Part shown: positions 51,758 to 61,411 of the stretch, in pieces | Layout: every line of letters begins with the position of its first letter | Position numbering within the stretch: position 1 is the first letter of the stretch | Source: an uncultured cyanobacterium | GTDB taxonomy: Bacteria > Cyanobacteriota > Cyanobacteriia > Cyanobacteriales > Microcystaceae | DNA length: 64,000 nucleotides | Direction: 5' to 3' | NCBI GenBank assembly: GCA_903887375.1 | Contig: CAISPN010000034.1 | Location: forward strand, 26,807 to 90,806 | Notes under the pieces: generated by a model | Seen by the model: only the letters and a program-made list of their open reading frames with translations | Told to the model about the DNA's origin: nothing | Databases searched by the model: none | Translations under genes and position numbers: made by a program

Positions 51758-54019
51758 ATGACAGCAAGTCCTCCATCCAAAGAGGCCAAAGTCAAAGTAG
51801 CCGTGGACAAAAATCCTGTTCCCACCTCCTTTGAGAAGTGGGGAAAACCGGGCCATTTTGACCGAACTTTGGCTAGGGGTCCAAAAACCACTACTTGGAT
51901 TTGGAATCTTCACGCTAACGTTCACGATTTTGATAGCCAAACCAGTGACCTAGAGGATATTTCTCGGAAGATCTTCAGTGCTCACTTTGGACACCTTGCG
52001 GTAGTTTTTGTTTGGCTGAGCGGTATGTATTTTCATGGCGCTCGTTTTTCCAACTACGAATCATGGCTAGTTGATCCCACTCATATTAAACCCAGTGCTC
52101 AGGTAGTATGGCCAGTAGTTGGACAAGGTATTCTTAATGCAGACGTAGGCGGCGGCTTCAGTGGAATTCAGATCACCTCTGGATTGTTCTACCTCTGGAG
52201 AGCTTCTGGTTTTACTAATAGTTACCAGCTCTACGTCACAGCAATTGGTGCTTTGGTTGCAGCAGCTTTAATGTTGTTTGCGGGTTGGTTTCACTACCAT
52301 AAGAGCGCACCTAAACTGGAGTGGTTCCAGAATGTTGAGTCAATGCTCAATCACCACTTAGCCGGACTTTTGGGTCTAGGTTCTTTGTCTTGGGCAGGTC
52401 ACCTCATTCATGTTTCACTACCTGTAAATAAGCTCTTAGATAGCGGCACAGCTCTCAAAGATATTCCCTTGCCTCATGAATTTCTCTTTAACAAGGACTT
52501 GATGGCTGAGTTATATCCCAGTTTCTCCCAAGGGATTGTTCCCTTTTTTACTTTGAACTGGTCTGTATACTCTGACTTTTTGACCTTTAAAGGCGGGGTG
52601 AATCCTGTAACTGGTGGTCTCTGGATGACAGATATTGCTCACCACCATGTAGCTATTGCTGTTCTCTTTTTGGTTGCCGGACATATGTACCGCACCAATT
52701 GGGGCATAGGTCATAGTATCAAAGAAATACTCGAAGCTCACAGAGATCCACTGTTGATCAGTGGTCAAGGACACAAAGGACTCTACGAGATCCTTACCAC
52801 TTCTTGGCATGCTCAACTGGCTATAAACTTGGCTTTGCTCGGTTCTTTGACCATCATTGTGGCCCAGCATATGTATGCTATGCCTCCTTACCCCTATCAA
52901 GCTATCGACTACGCAACTCAACTGTCCCTGTTTACTCACCATACATGGATAGGCGGTTTCTTGATAGTTGGAGCAGGTGCTCACGCTGCTATCTTTATGG
53001 TACGTGACTATGATCCAGCCAAAAACGTTGGTAACGTTCTAGATAACGTTTTACGTCACCGCGATGCGATCATTTCCCACCTGAACTGGGTATGTATTTT
53101 CCTCGGTTTCCATAGTTTTGGTCTGTATGTTCACAATGACACCATGCGTGCATTGGGACGTCCCCAAGATATGTTCTCCGACACGGCAATTCAACTGCAG
53201 CCTGTATTTGCTCAATGGGTTCAACACCTACATGCAGCTGCTCCCGGTACAACCGCTTTAAATGCAGTAGCTCCTGCTAGCTATGCTTTTGGTGGAGCCA
53301 CTATTGCTGTGGCTGGAAAAGTTGCTGTAGCTCCAATTCCTTTAGGAACTGCTGACTTTCTAATTCACCACATCCACGCTTTCACTATTCACGTAACTGT
53401 ACTGATCTTGTTGAAAGGGGTTCTCTACGCACGTAGCTCTCGTCTGATCCCAGATAAAGCTACTCTAGGTTTCCGCTTTCCTTGCGATGGACCAGGACGT
53501 GGAGGTACTTGTCAAGTTTCTGGATGGGACCATGTTTTCCTAGGTCTGTTCTGGATGTACAACTCTCTTTCAATTGTGATTTTCCACTTCAGTTGGAAAA
53601 TGCAGTCTGATGTTTGGGGTACTGTAAATCCTGACGGAACAGTGAACCATGTCACGGCTGGTAATTTTGCCCAAAGTGCCATTACCATCAACGGATGGTT
53701 GAGAGATTTCCTCTGGGCACAAGCTGCTCAGGTAATCAACTCCTATGGTTCAGCTCTTTCTGCTTACGGCATAATGTTCCTTGCTGGTCACTTCGTTTTT
53801 GCTTTCAGTCTGATGTTCCTATTTAGCGGACGTGGATATTGGCAAGAATTGATTGAATCAATTGTATGGGCACATAACAAGCTGAACTTAGGACCTGCTA
53901 TACAGCCTCGCGCTCTGAGTATTATTCAGGGTCGTGCTGTTGGTGTAGCACACTATCTGCTAGGGGGAATCGTAACCACTTGGGCCTTCTTCTTAGCCAG
54001 AAGTATATCAATTGGCTAA
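51758..54019 (+). CDS. psaA: Photosystem I reaction-centre subunit PsaA
   Basis: 753-residue core subunit with eleven membrane helices, carrying P700 and electron-transfer cofactors. [15 protein letters not shown] near residue 573 gives the two cysteines for the F-X iron-sulfur cluster shared with PsaB. Length and motifs are standard. psaB starts 104 bases downstream, so the two form an operon. Confidence 0.98.
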
Positions 54020-54123: not shown

Positions 54124-56340
54124 ATGGCAACTAAATTTCCAAAATTTAGCCAGGATCTAGCACAAGATCCCACAACCAGAAGAATATGGTACGGGATTGC
54201 CACAGCCCATGACTTTGAGTCTCATGATGGGATGACCGAGGAAAATCTCTATCAGAAGATTTTTGCCTCTCATTTTGGTCATCTAGCCATCATTTTTCTG
54301 TGGACTTCCGGCACCATATTCCACGTGGCTTGGCAAGGTAACTTTGAACAATGGATCAAAGATCCGTTGAACGTTCGCCCTATCGCTCATGCGATTTGGG
54401 ATCCTCAGTTTGGTAAAGGAGCAGTAGATGCTTTCACCCAAGCTGGCGCGGCTAACCCAGTTAATATTGCTTATTCTGGGGTTTATCACTGGTTCTATAC
54501 CATTGGTTTGAGAACCAACCAAGATCTCTTTCAAGGAGCAGTATTCCTTTTAATTCTTGCTTCTTTGTTCCTGTTTGCAGGCTGGTTACACTTACAACCC
54601 AAATTCCGTCCTAGTCTGGCTTGGTTCAAAAATGCTGAATCTCGCCTCAACCACCACTTGGCCGGCTTGTTTGGTGTAAGCTCTCTAGCTTGGACTGGTC
54701 ACCTAGTTCATGTTGCTATTCCTGAAGCGCGCGGTCAGCATGTAGGTTGGGATAATTTCCTTTCCACTCCTCCACACCCATTGGGTTTGGCTCCATTTTG
54801 GAGCTTAAACTGGGGGGCATATGCTCAAGACCCTGACAGCCTTGGCCATCTTTTTGGCACTTCACAAGGAGCTGGAACAGCAATCTTGACCTTCCTCGGT
54901 GGTTTCCATCCACAAACAGAAGCTCTTTGGTTGACAGATATTGCCCATCACCACTTAGCGATTGCTGTGATCTTCATCATTGCTGGTCACATGTATCGTA
55001 CTAATTGGGGAATAGGCCACAGTATCAAAGAGATCCTCAACGCTCACAATCCTCCTAAAGGTACTCCTTTTGGTGGAGCTCTAGGAGCTGGTCACAAGGG
55101 TCTTTATGACACTATCAACAATTCCTTGCACTTCCAATTAGGATTGGCGTTGGCTTCTCTTGGTGTGGTTACTTCTCTGGTAGCGCAGCACATGTACGCA
55201 CTGCCTTCCTATGCTTTTATTGCTAAGGACTACACCACCCAAGCTGCTCTGTATACCCATCACCAGTATATTGCTGGATTCTTGATGGTTGGAGCTTTTG
55301 CTCATGGCGCGATCTTCTTTGTTCGTGATTATGATCCAGAAGCCAATAAAGATAATGTTCTTGCACGTATGCTTGAGCATAAAGAGGCGATCATTTCTCA
55401 CTTGAGTTGGGTCTCTCTATTCCTCGGTTTCCATACCTTGGGTCTCTATGTTCACAACGACGTAGTAGTTGCCTTTGGTACTCCTGAAAAACAAATCTTG
55501 ATTGAACCTGTATTTGCTCAGTTCGTTCAAGCAGCTTCTGGAAAAGCTCTCTACGGTTTTGATACCCTCTTATCTAATTCTGATAGTATAGCTTCTACCA
55601 CTGGAGCGGTATGGTTACCTGGTTGGTTATCTGCTATCAATAGCGGTACTAACTCTCTTTTCCTGACAATAGGTCCTGGTGATTTCTTAGTCCACCATGC
55701 CATTGCTTTAGGTCTGCACACCACCACTTTGATCTTGGTCAAAGGTGCCCTAGATGCTCGTGGTTCCAAATTAATGCCCGATAAAAAAGACTTCGGTTAT
55801 TCCTTCCCTTGCGATGGACCAGGCCGTGGCGGTACTTGTGATATCTCTGCTTGGGATTCCTTCTATCTAGCTATGTTCTGGATGTTAAACACCCTAGGTT
55901 GGTTGACCTTCTACTGGCATTGGAAACATCTTGGCGTATGGCAAGGTAACGTGGCTCAATTCAATGAAAATTCCACCTATTTGATGGGCTGGTTCCGTGA
56001 TTATCTCTGGGCTAACTCTGCTCAGTTGATTAATGGTTACAACCCCTATGGAGTGAATAATCTATCTGTCTGGGCTTGGATGTTCCTCTTTGGACACCTT
56101 GTATGGGCAACCGGATTTATGTTCCTCATCTCATGGCGTGGATACTGGCAAGAACTGATTGAAACAATCGTTTGGGCTCATGAACGTACTCCTCTAGCGA
56201 ATCTTGTTCGTTGGAAAGATAAGCCTGTTGCCCTTTCTATTGTTCAAGCTCGTGTTGTCGGTCTTGCTCACTTTACCGTAGGCTATATCTTTACCTATGC
56301 TGCCTTCTTAATTGCCTCTACTTCTGGTAAGTTTGGCTAA
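54124..56340 (+). CDS. psaB: Photosystem I reaction-centre subunit PsaB
   Basis: 738-residue partner of Psa[16 protein letters not shown] near residue 558 supplies the other two F-X cysteines. AGGAGAA lies about 16 bases ahead of the ATG. The gene is second in psaAB and ends at a strong terminator. Confidence 0.98.
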
Positions 56341-61018: not shown

Positions 61019-61034
61019 TATATTTTTTTGTTAA

Positions 61035-61377
61035 CGGGACCGGCCAGAATCGAACTGGCGGCCTAGCGCTTCAGATTGGTGTGAGTTTCCTCACTCTCTG
61101 GACTATTCCTTCACCATAGATAATCAAACAATCCTTAGGTGGTGGCCGTTTCTGTTGAGAGAGAGATTATTTATCTCCAAAACCTTCCCTAGGGTTCTCA
61201 CAACCAGTCTCTGCACCTTCTTCGAAATGGGAAATCATCGAAGCTTGGCTCAAGATTACCATATCTAGATAAGACTTAGGCTTCCTTGAATTTGACCACA
61301 TTCACTCCTGTAGTTTCCTAGACAGAGTGCCCGATATTTCAGGAGGCGCTCGCTCTATCCTGCTGAGCTACGGCCCC
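61035..61377 (-). tRNA. trnR-CCU: tRNA-Arg(CCU), interrupted by a group I intron
   Basis: The exons are 61341-61377 (37 bases, 5') and 61035-61071 (37 bases, 3'). Joined, they give a 74-base tRNA. Acceptor GGGGCCG pairs with CGGTCCC (one G-U) and the discriminator is G. The D arm is GCTC/GAGC. The anticodon stem AGCGC/GCGCT encloses loop CTCCTAA with anticodon CCU, the variable loop is AGGCC, and the T arm is GCCAG-TTCGATT-CTGGC. No CCA is encoded. The intron falls between U36 and A37. All base pairs were checked by hand. Confidence 0.93.
61072..61340 (-). ncRNA. Group I intron in tRNA-Arg(CCU)
   Basis: A 269-base intron. It follows a U (U36) and ends in G, as group I introns require. Core strings read in order on the minus strand: AATCTTGAGCCAAGC (P-element), GGTGCAGAGACTGG (Q/R, P7 5' side) and AAGGAATAGTCCAGAG (P7 3' side/S). 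A P2-like hairpin CACTC...GAGTG surrounds GAAA near the 5' end, and GGG about 9 bases into the intron can pair with the exon's CCU ending in a U-G pair (P1). No ORF lies inside. It is presumably self-splicing, by analogy with other bacterial tRNA introns. Confidence 0.88.
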
Positions 61378-61411
61378 AATTTAACCCCTAACATCATAAC
61401 AAAGTTATTCT

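Follow-up and report, generated by a model that had tools for sequence, protein, structure and literature searches.

The gene for tRNA-Arg(CCU) in this uncultured cyanobacterium is interrupted in its anticodon loop by a group I intron, and we put at about 0.9 the probability of the following reading: this is the only detected tRNA-Arg(CCU) gene of the genome, its intron, which contains no long ORF, is predicted to be self-splicing, and the intron, likely inherited, belongs to a family that occupies the same site in roughly half of the genomes sampled from the order. The gene lies at 61035-61377 on the minus strand of the window, by which we mean the whole 64,000-nucleotide stretch of DNA analysed. 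It makes trnR-CCU a third home for introns among cyanobacterial tRNA genes, occupied in half of the order's genomes that were sampled and in diatom endosymbionts; according to the accessible portion of PMC5733544, work before it knew such introns only in tRNA-Leu(UAA) and tRNA-fMet. Our literature search, the reach of which stopped short of key older papers, returned no report of a group I intron in a cyanobacterial trnR-CCU gene, and its novelty in print is likely, if not proven.

The split gene and its place in the genome

Two exons of 37 bases flank the 269-base intron (61072-61340). The 5' exon (61341-61377) ends in the anticodon CCU, and the 3' exon (61035-61071) begins with A37 and A38 and continues to the discriminator base, placing the intron between U36 and A37. 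This is the arrangement that the initial annotation had read from the letters alone, and ARAGORN concurred when introns were allowed, reporting a tRNA-Arg(cct) with a 269-base intron as the sole tRNA of the window (61034-61378, one base longer on each side); run without introns, it reported zero tRNAs in the window. The spliced exons give a 74-base tRNA with every stem present, as had been proposed, and the group I core strings that were first noticed, GAGCCAAG, GCAGAGACT and ATAGTCC, all occur in the minus-strand reading of the intron. The Rfam group I model RF00028 matches the intron end to end, over the full model length (68.7 bits against a cut-off of 50, E 2.4e-15), and the only large insertion relative to the model separates P7 (5' strand) from P3 (3' strand). 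It is the sole Rfam match of the window at gathering cut-offs, and the same model is matched only once, at this intron, in the draft genome (2.93 Mb, 124 contigs). The exon boundary is identical in 140 of 145 junction loci of homologues, the other five (L090, L151, L160, L169 and L174) being excluded as giving no decode; as homologues share this boundary and carry compensatory changes, chance is ruled out as the source of the split gene. The cyanobacterial host assumed at the outset is borne out by the record titles of relatives, which are cyanobacterial with one odd exception, and by two ORFs of the window (51758-54019 and 54124-56340) which we take, by recognition, to resemble psaA and psaB. 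Annotation can miss trnR-CCU genes of this kind, because ARAGORN without introns returns a blank and a copy with a LAGLIDADG gene (L061) goes unlisted at the Rfam cut-off. The Bartonella tRNA-Arg(CCU) gene, as described in the accessible part of PMC7717549, was unannotated and recognised only once its exons were joined.

An intact trnR-CCU elsewhere in the genome would have spoken against the initial annotation, and none was found in the draft by BLAST, by junction pattern, or by tRNA model with ARAGORN. The whole gene used as BLAST query gave one match, the spliced (intronless) CCU junction pattern is absent from the 2.93 Mb draft, and the tRNA model returned 40 matches, none at the trnR-CCU locus, among which ARAGORN distinguished 39 tRNAs with ACG, CCG and UCU as the arginine anticodons. 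The window locus is the only detected tRNA-Arg(CCU) gene, and a further copy beyond the draft assembly is presumably absent. Among 13,314 codons counted over 30 long window ORFs, 66 are AGG. A tRNA-Arg(UCU) could wobble to AGG, and its gene is present in the draft, so the split locus might be silent or decayed, leaving the UCU tRNA alone to read AGG; this we regard as extremely improbable, given that the exons, splice sites and core helices of the locus are intact and conserved, and that across 386 genomes sampled from the phylum the intron-bearing junction (31 genomes) and the intact, intronless CCU junction (56 genomes) never occur together, which is expected of one needed gene. We favour a locus in use, the spliced product of which would be a normal tRNA reading AGG.

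Intron structure and predicted splicing

The drawn structure, all elements of which lie on the minus strand, was scored on 66 ORF-less homologues with the insert (alignment A1, made with MAFFT). In P1 (helix 1, every counted cell paired), a guide GGG (61330-61332) pairs with CCU, leaving a U.G at the splice site, and is followed by the P2 hairpin (61303-61329), in which five of seven pairs are changed on both sides. The 5' and 3' strands of P3 (61294-61299 and 61142-61147; helix 3, 99.7% paired) enclose the P4-P6 domain (61216-61290; helices 4-7, 92.6-100% paired), the 5' strand of P7 (61206-61209) and an insert of 58 bases closed by a hairpin stem (61148-61205), which is the site of the LAGLIDADG ORF in relatives. 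P8 follows (61112-61141; helix 10, 84.6% paired), then the 3' strand of P7 (61101-61104; helix 8), the four pairs of which are invariant in 66 of 66 rows, and P9 with its GAAA loop (61081-61094; helix 11, 100% paired and including one pair with both sides changed). The terminal, or omega, G of the intron (61072) is invariant in A1. Overall, 87.5% of cells are paired in the drawn structure versus at most 47.8% when it is slid along the 66 introns, and cells changed on both sides number 172 versus 82.2 in shuffles, with 0 of 500 shuffles as high; such a double change occurs in one or more pairs of each of P2, P3, P4, P5, P6, P8 and P9. The 66 homologues share the group I core, with its P3-P8 and P4-P6 domains and P7 formed across P3. 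They share also the splice sites of the class, with the U.G at the 5' site (in 59 of 66 rows; a one-column shift in A1 makes the remaining seven score as C-G) and a G at the intron end, and a CGGG able to pair with CCU is conserved among homologous introns.

Support for the insert stem is confined to an alignment-free test, because the MAFFT columns are out of register there and the stem as drawn for the window is paired in only 36.9% of A1 cells; in that test, the best end-to-end helix has a mean of 9.35 pairs in 80 distinct inserts, versus 6.09 when shuffled and 6.89 when swapped. Bacterial tRNA introns of subgroup IC3 have a compact core, with no extra helices beside P7. The feature that bears on membership of that subgroup is the P7-P3' insert, a 58-base hairpin in the window's form versus 4 bases in the other. 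Free-energy folding of the intron was discarded as a structure test, being uninformative (z -0.64, with 50 of 200 shuffles as good).

On this structure, the intron would remove itself from the precursor by two transesterifications, with the guide GGG pairing with CCU to set the U.G at the 5' splice site, a role suggested by group I introns generally, and the terminal G acting as the 3' splice nucleotide. The extra P7-P3' hairpin could conceivably alter folding, and some group I introns need protein co-factors in vitro, and presumably in vivo (PMC7717549, accessible part), so that the intron might splice poorly alone and depend on a host protein, making the step open to regulation. Such dependence seems unlikely to us, as the core of the window's intron is complete and the tRNA-Arg(CCU) intron of Bartonella splices both in vivo and in vitro, where it does so by itself, according to the same portion of that source. 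Autonomous splicing is the course that we predict for the window's intron.

Distribution, two forms and resident genes

Comparison with other cyanobacterial trnR-CCU loci, which the initial annotation had called for while leaving the frequency of the intron open, placed the 16-base 3' splice junction in 193 of 388 sampled genomes from the order, and in 77 of 149 genera; a reversed control pattern in the same survey had zero matches among those listed. Across the phylum sample, the 31 of 386 genomes that carry the intron junction are all among the 105 of the order, and the junction is absent from the 281 genomes outside it. As the patterns are exact, all of these counts are minima. A scan of named genomes returned at least 115 stretches, 110 of which decode as intron-bearing trnR-CCU; by record title, the hosts include Trichodesmium, Okeania, Moorena, Planktothrix, Arthrospira, Nostoc and Calothrix, as well as endosymbionts of the diatoms Epithemia and Rhopalodia (L065, L119). 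The intron is also present in a single-contig relative of 1,443,806 bases (G391, locus L055), and 16 intact trnR-CCU genes were read in relatives. A record titled Candidatus Gracilibacteria (L162, JAAUUT010000011.1) contains the cyanobacterial intron and is likely mislabelled.

The trnR introns fall into two forms where pattern matching could classify them (137 of 172), with a P7-P3' spacing of 36-84 or about 630 bases in one form versus 4 bases in the other; the remaining 35 were unclassified for the insert by pattern, and most were read by eye. Among the matches listed, the forms differ too in P4 and the joining segments, with the exception of L075 and L183, which combine the first form's P4 with no insert. 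Intron length is under 500 bases in 92 of the 110 decoded loci (from at least 115 named stretches) and over 500 in 18. By our reading, a stop-to-stop frame of 206-249 codons crosses the P7-P3' gap in sixteen of these long introns, and in the other two (L154, L168) the P5 loop holds an antisense frame. Pfam, run on four proteins, assigned L142 and L061 to LAGLIDADG_2 (E 1.8e-26 and 1.5e-33) and L177 and L154 to HNH_2 (E 1.9e-9 and 1.5e-10). The LAGLIDADG stop codon falls inside P8 in 19 of 20 rows, so that the frame crosses P3'; the exception is Desmonostoc vinosum, in which the frame stops earlier. In the endonuclease table L156 and L196 are one genome, and L063 was left out. Antisense HNH-type frames in the P5 loop of insert-free introns were seen at L154, L168, L177 and L192, L154 and L192 apparently coming from a single genome.

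One LAGLIDADG protein used as query had 156 relatives, and among the 120 of these that were listed the named organisms are cyanobacterial with a single exception, P0108, a protein of 55% identity whose record names a Pyrinomonadaceae bacterium, of a different phylum. The relatives' gene likely encodes a homing endonuclease, and such a protein could carry the whole intron or just its core from one lineage to another. The intact endonuclease gene of a mobile intron is absent from the window's copy, in which the longest listed frame lying wholly within the intron spans 44 aa and is by eye unlike a LAGLIDADG protein. The window's insert was considered as a relic of a LAGLIDADG gene and set aside, as by eye there is no similarity beyond the stem.

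Within the family that about half of the order's sampled genomes have at this site, the window's intron would be the ORF-less state. We are evenly poised on a broader proposal: that much of the order decodes AGG through a long-lived split tRNA gene, the intron of which has two core forms that trade places and has taken up LAGLIDADG and HNH genes in different loops, the hairpin being the scar of a lost gene. If this is true, the ribozyme has been a shared homing platform on which two unrelated endonucleases settled in different loops. A site with empty, ORF-less and gene-bearing alleles would allow the homing cycle of intron gain and loss to be tested.

Descent and relation to other tRNA introns

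Whether the intron was transferred or is an old element had been left as two possibilities by the initial annotation; for the window's lineage the balance now favours inheritance, while elsewhere the form has switched. Long inheritance is likelier than recent transfer for the window's intron because, within its form, intron distances track those of HisS (rho 0.816 over 24 hosts with the insert, 0 of 5000 permutations as high), in a comparison based on this one protein and on hand-chosen hosts. Both the window's intron and its HisS are nearest those of two genus mates, G387 and then G386; there is a mismatch within the genus, in that the G386 intron is nearest G401 and G398, while the G386 HisS is nearest G387 and the window's genome (G000). 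On a HisS tree of 51 hosts, four intron states require 9 changes versus 23.7 in shuffles, a count which is no measure of rates because the hosts were hand-chosen and only six are intronless; they are 51 of 60 candidates, eight having a divergent match only and G407 a split one.

Recent horizontal transfer into the window's genome, as proposed for some bacterial tRNA introns, is quite improbable in this setting. The patchy distribution would suit it, as there are intron-free relatives within the window's family and, in another genus of that family, the locus that bears the intron in G403 is an intact trnR-CCU in G397 (632 bases of flank are 89% identical); the endonuclease-like genes in introns of relatives would suit it too. 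Against it speak the agreement of intron and HisS distances and the lack of a long ORF in the window's copy. A recent phage or plasmid carrier was rejected, as the trnR-CCU gene had no match in plasmid or phage collections and the junction pattern was absent from viral contigs. A departure from vertical descent is seen in Desmonostoc, where D. vinosum (G101) and D. geniculatum (G278) differ in the form present at one shared locus (1745 bases align, with 79% identity), a switch which is in keeping with transfer and counts against pure inheritance. In D. vinosum the intron combines the P4 of the first form and a LAGLIDADG gene with the other form's base in the segment before P7', a mixture compatible, on that one base, with gene conversion; the Symploca introns L156, L197 and L198 have the same base there. 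We picture the window's lineage as having likely inherited its intron, in which the LAGLIDADG gene that relatives have in this hairpin was either lost or never present.

The closest known counterparts by gene and class are the tRNA-Arg(CCU) introns of alphaproteobacteria (Agrobacterium, and BbgpI of Bartonella), compared here by published description, the hosts of which belong to a different phylum; the accessible part of PMC7717549 cites Paquin 1999 on this group. The tRNA-Leu(UAA) introns of cyanobacteria share core motifs with the window's intron, and by BLAST bases 83-172 of the trnR-CCU gene match a second place in several relatives, which in G268, G183, G147, G143 and G105 is the tRNA-Leu(UAA) intron. 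Those introns sit after the first anticodon base, unlike the window's, and lack a P7-P3' insert in the 23 that were cut into segments; the tRNA-Leu(UAA) gene of the window's genome is intron-free. With all tRNA introns placed in one tree, the Leu introns other than L218 are separate from those of trnR, on five core segments totalling 88 bases, which are too short for claims about branches. Thirty introns were dropped from it at segment extraction (22 Leu, 5 Asn, 2 Arg and 1 other), and L063, L102 and L142, Arg introns with no recognisable P3' segment, are also left out. The tRNA-Leu(UAA) cores of L218 and L223 (G185 and G289, family f22) are nearer the insert-free trnR-CCU form than are other Leu cores, a resemblance of sequence that may reflect a move between tRNA genes.

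The cyanobacterial tRNA-fMet intron resembles the trnR-CCU relatives in bearing an endonuclease, but it occupies another tRNA and its enzyme, I-Ssp6803I, is of the PD-(D/E)XK type (PMC1995217, accessible part), rather than LAGLIDADG_2 or HNH_2. The 'group I introns' of 22-49 bases described in cyanobacterial tRNA-Arg(ACG), tRNA-Gly and tRNA-Lys, in the accessible text of PMC5733544, also interrupt the anticodon loop, but of other tRNAs, and their length is much below what a group I core needs. Group I introns were seen, too, in the anticodon loop of tRNA-Asn(GUU) at L010, L025, L029, L226 and L228, three of them longer than 500 bases, in members of the phylum outside the window's class (family f38). 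Finally, positions 1001-3915 of L234 (G207) contain three group I introns inside 3 kb.
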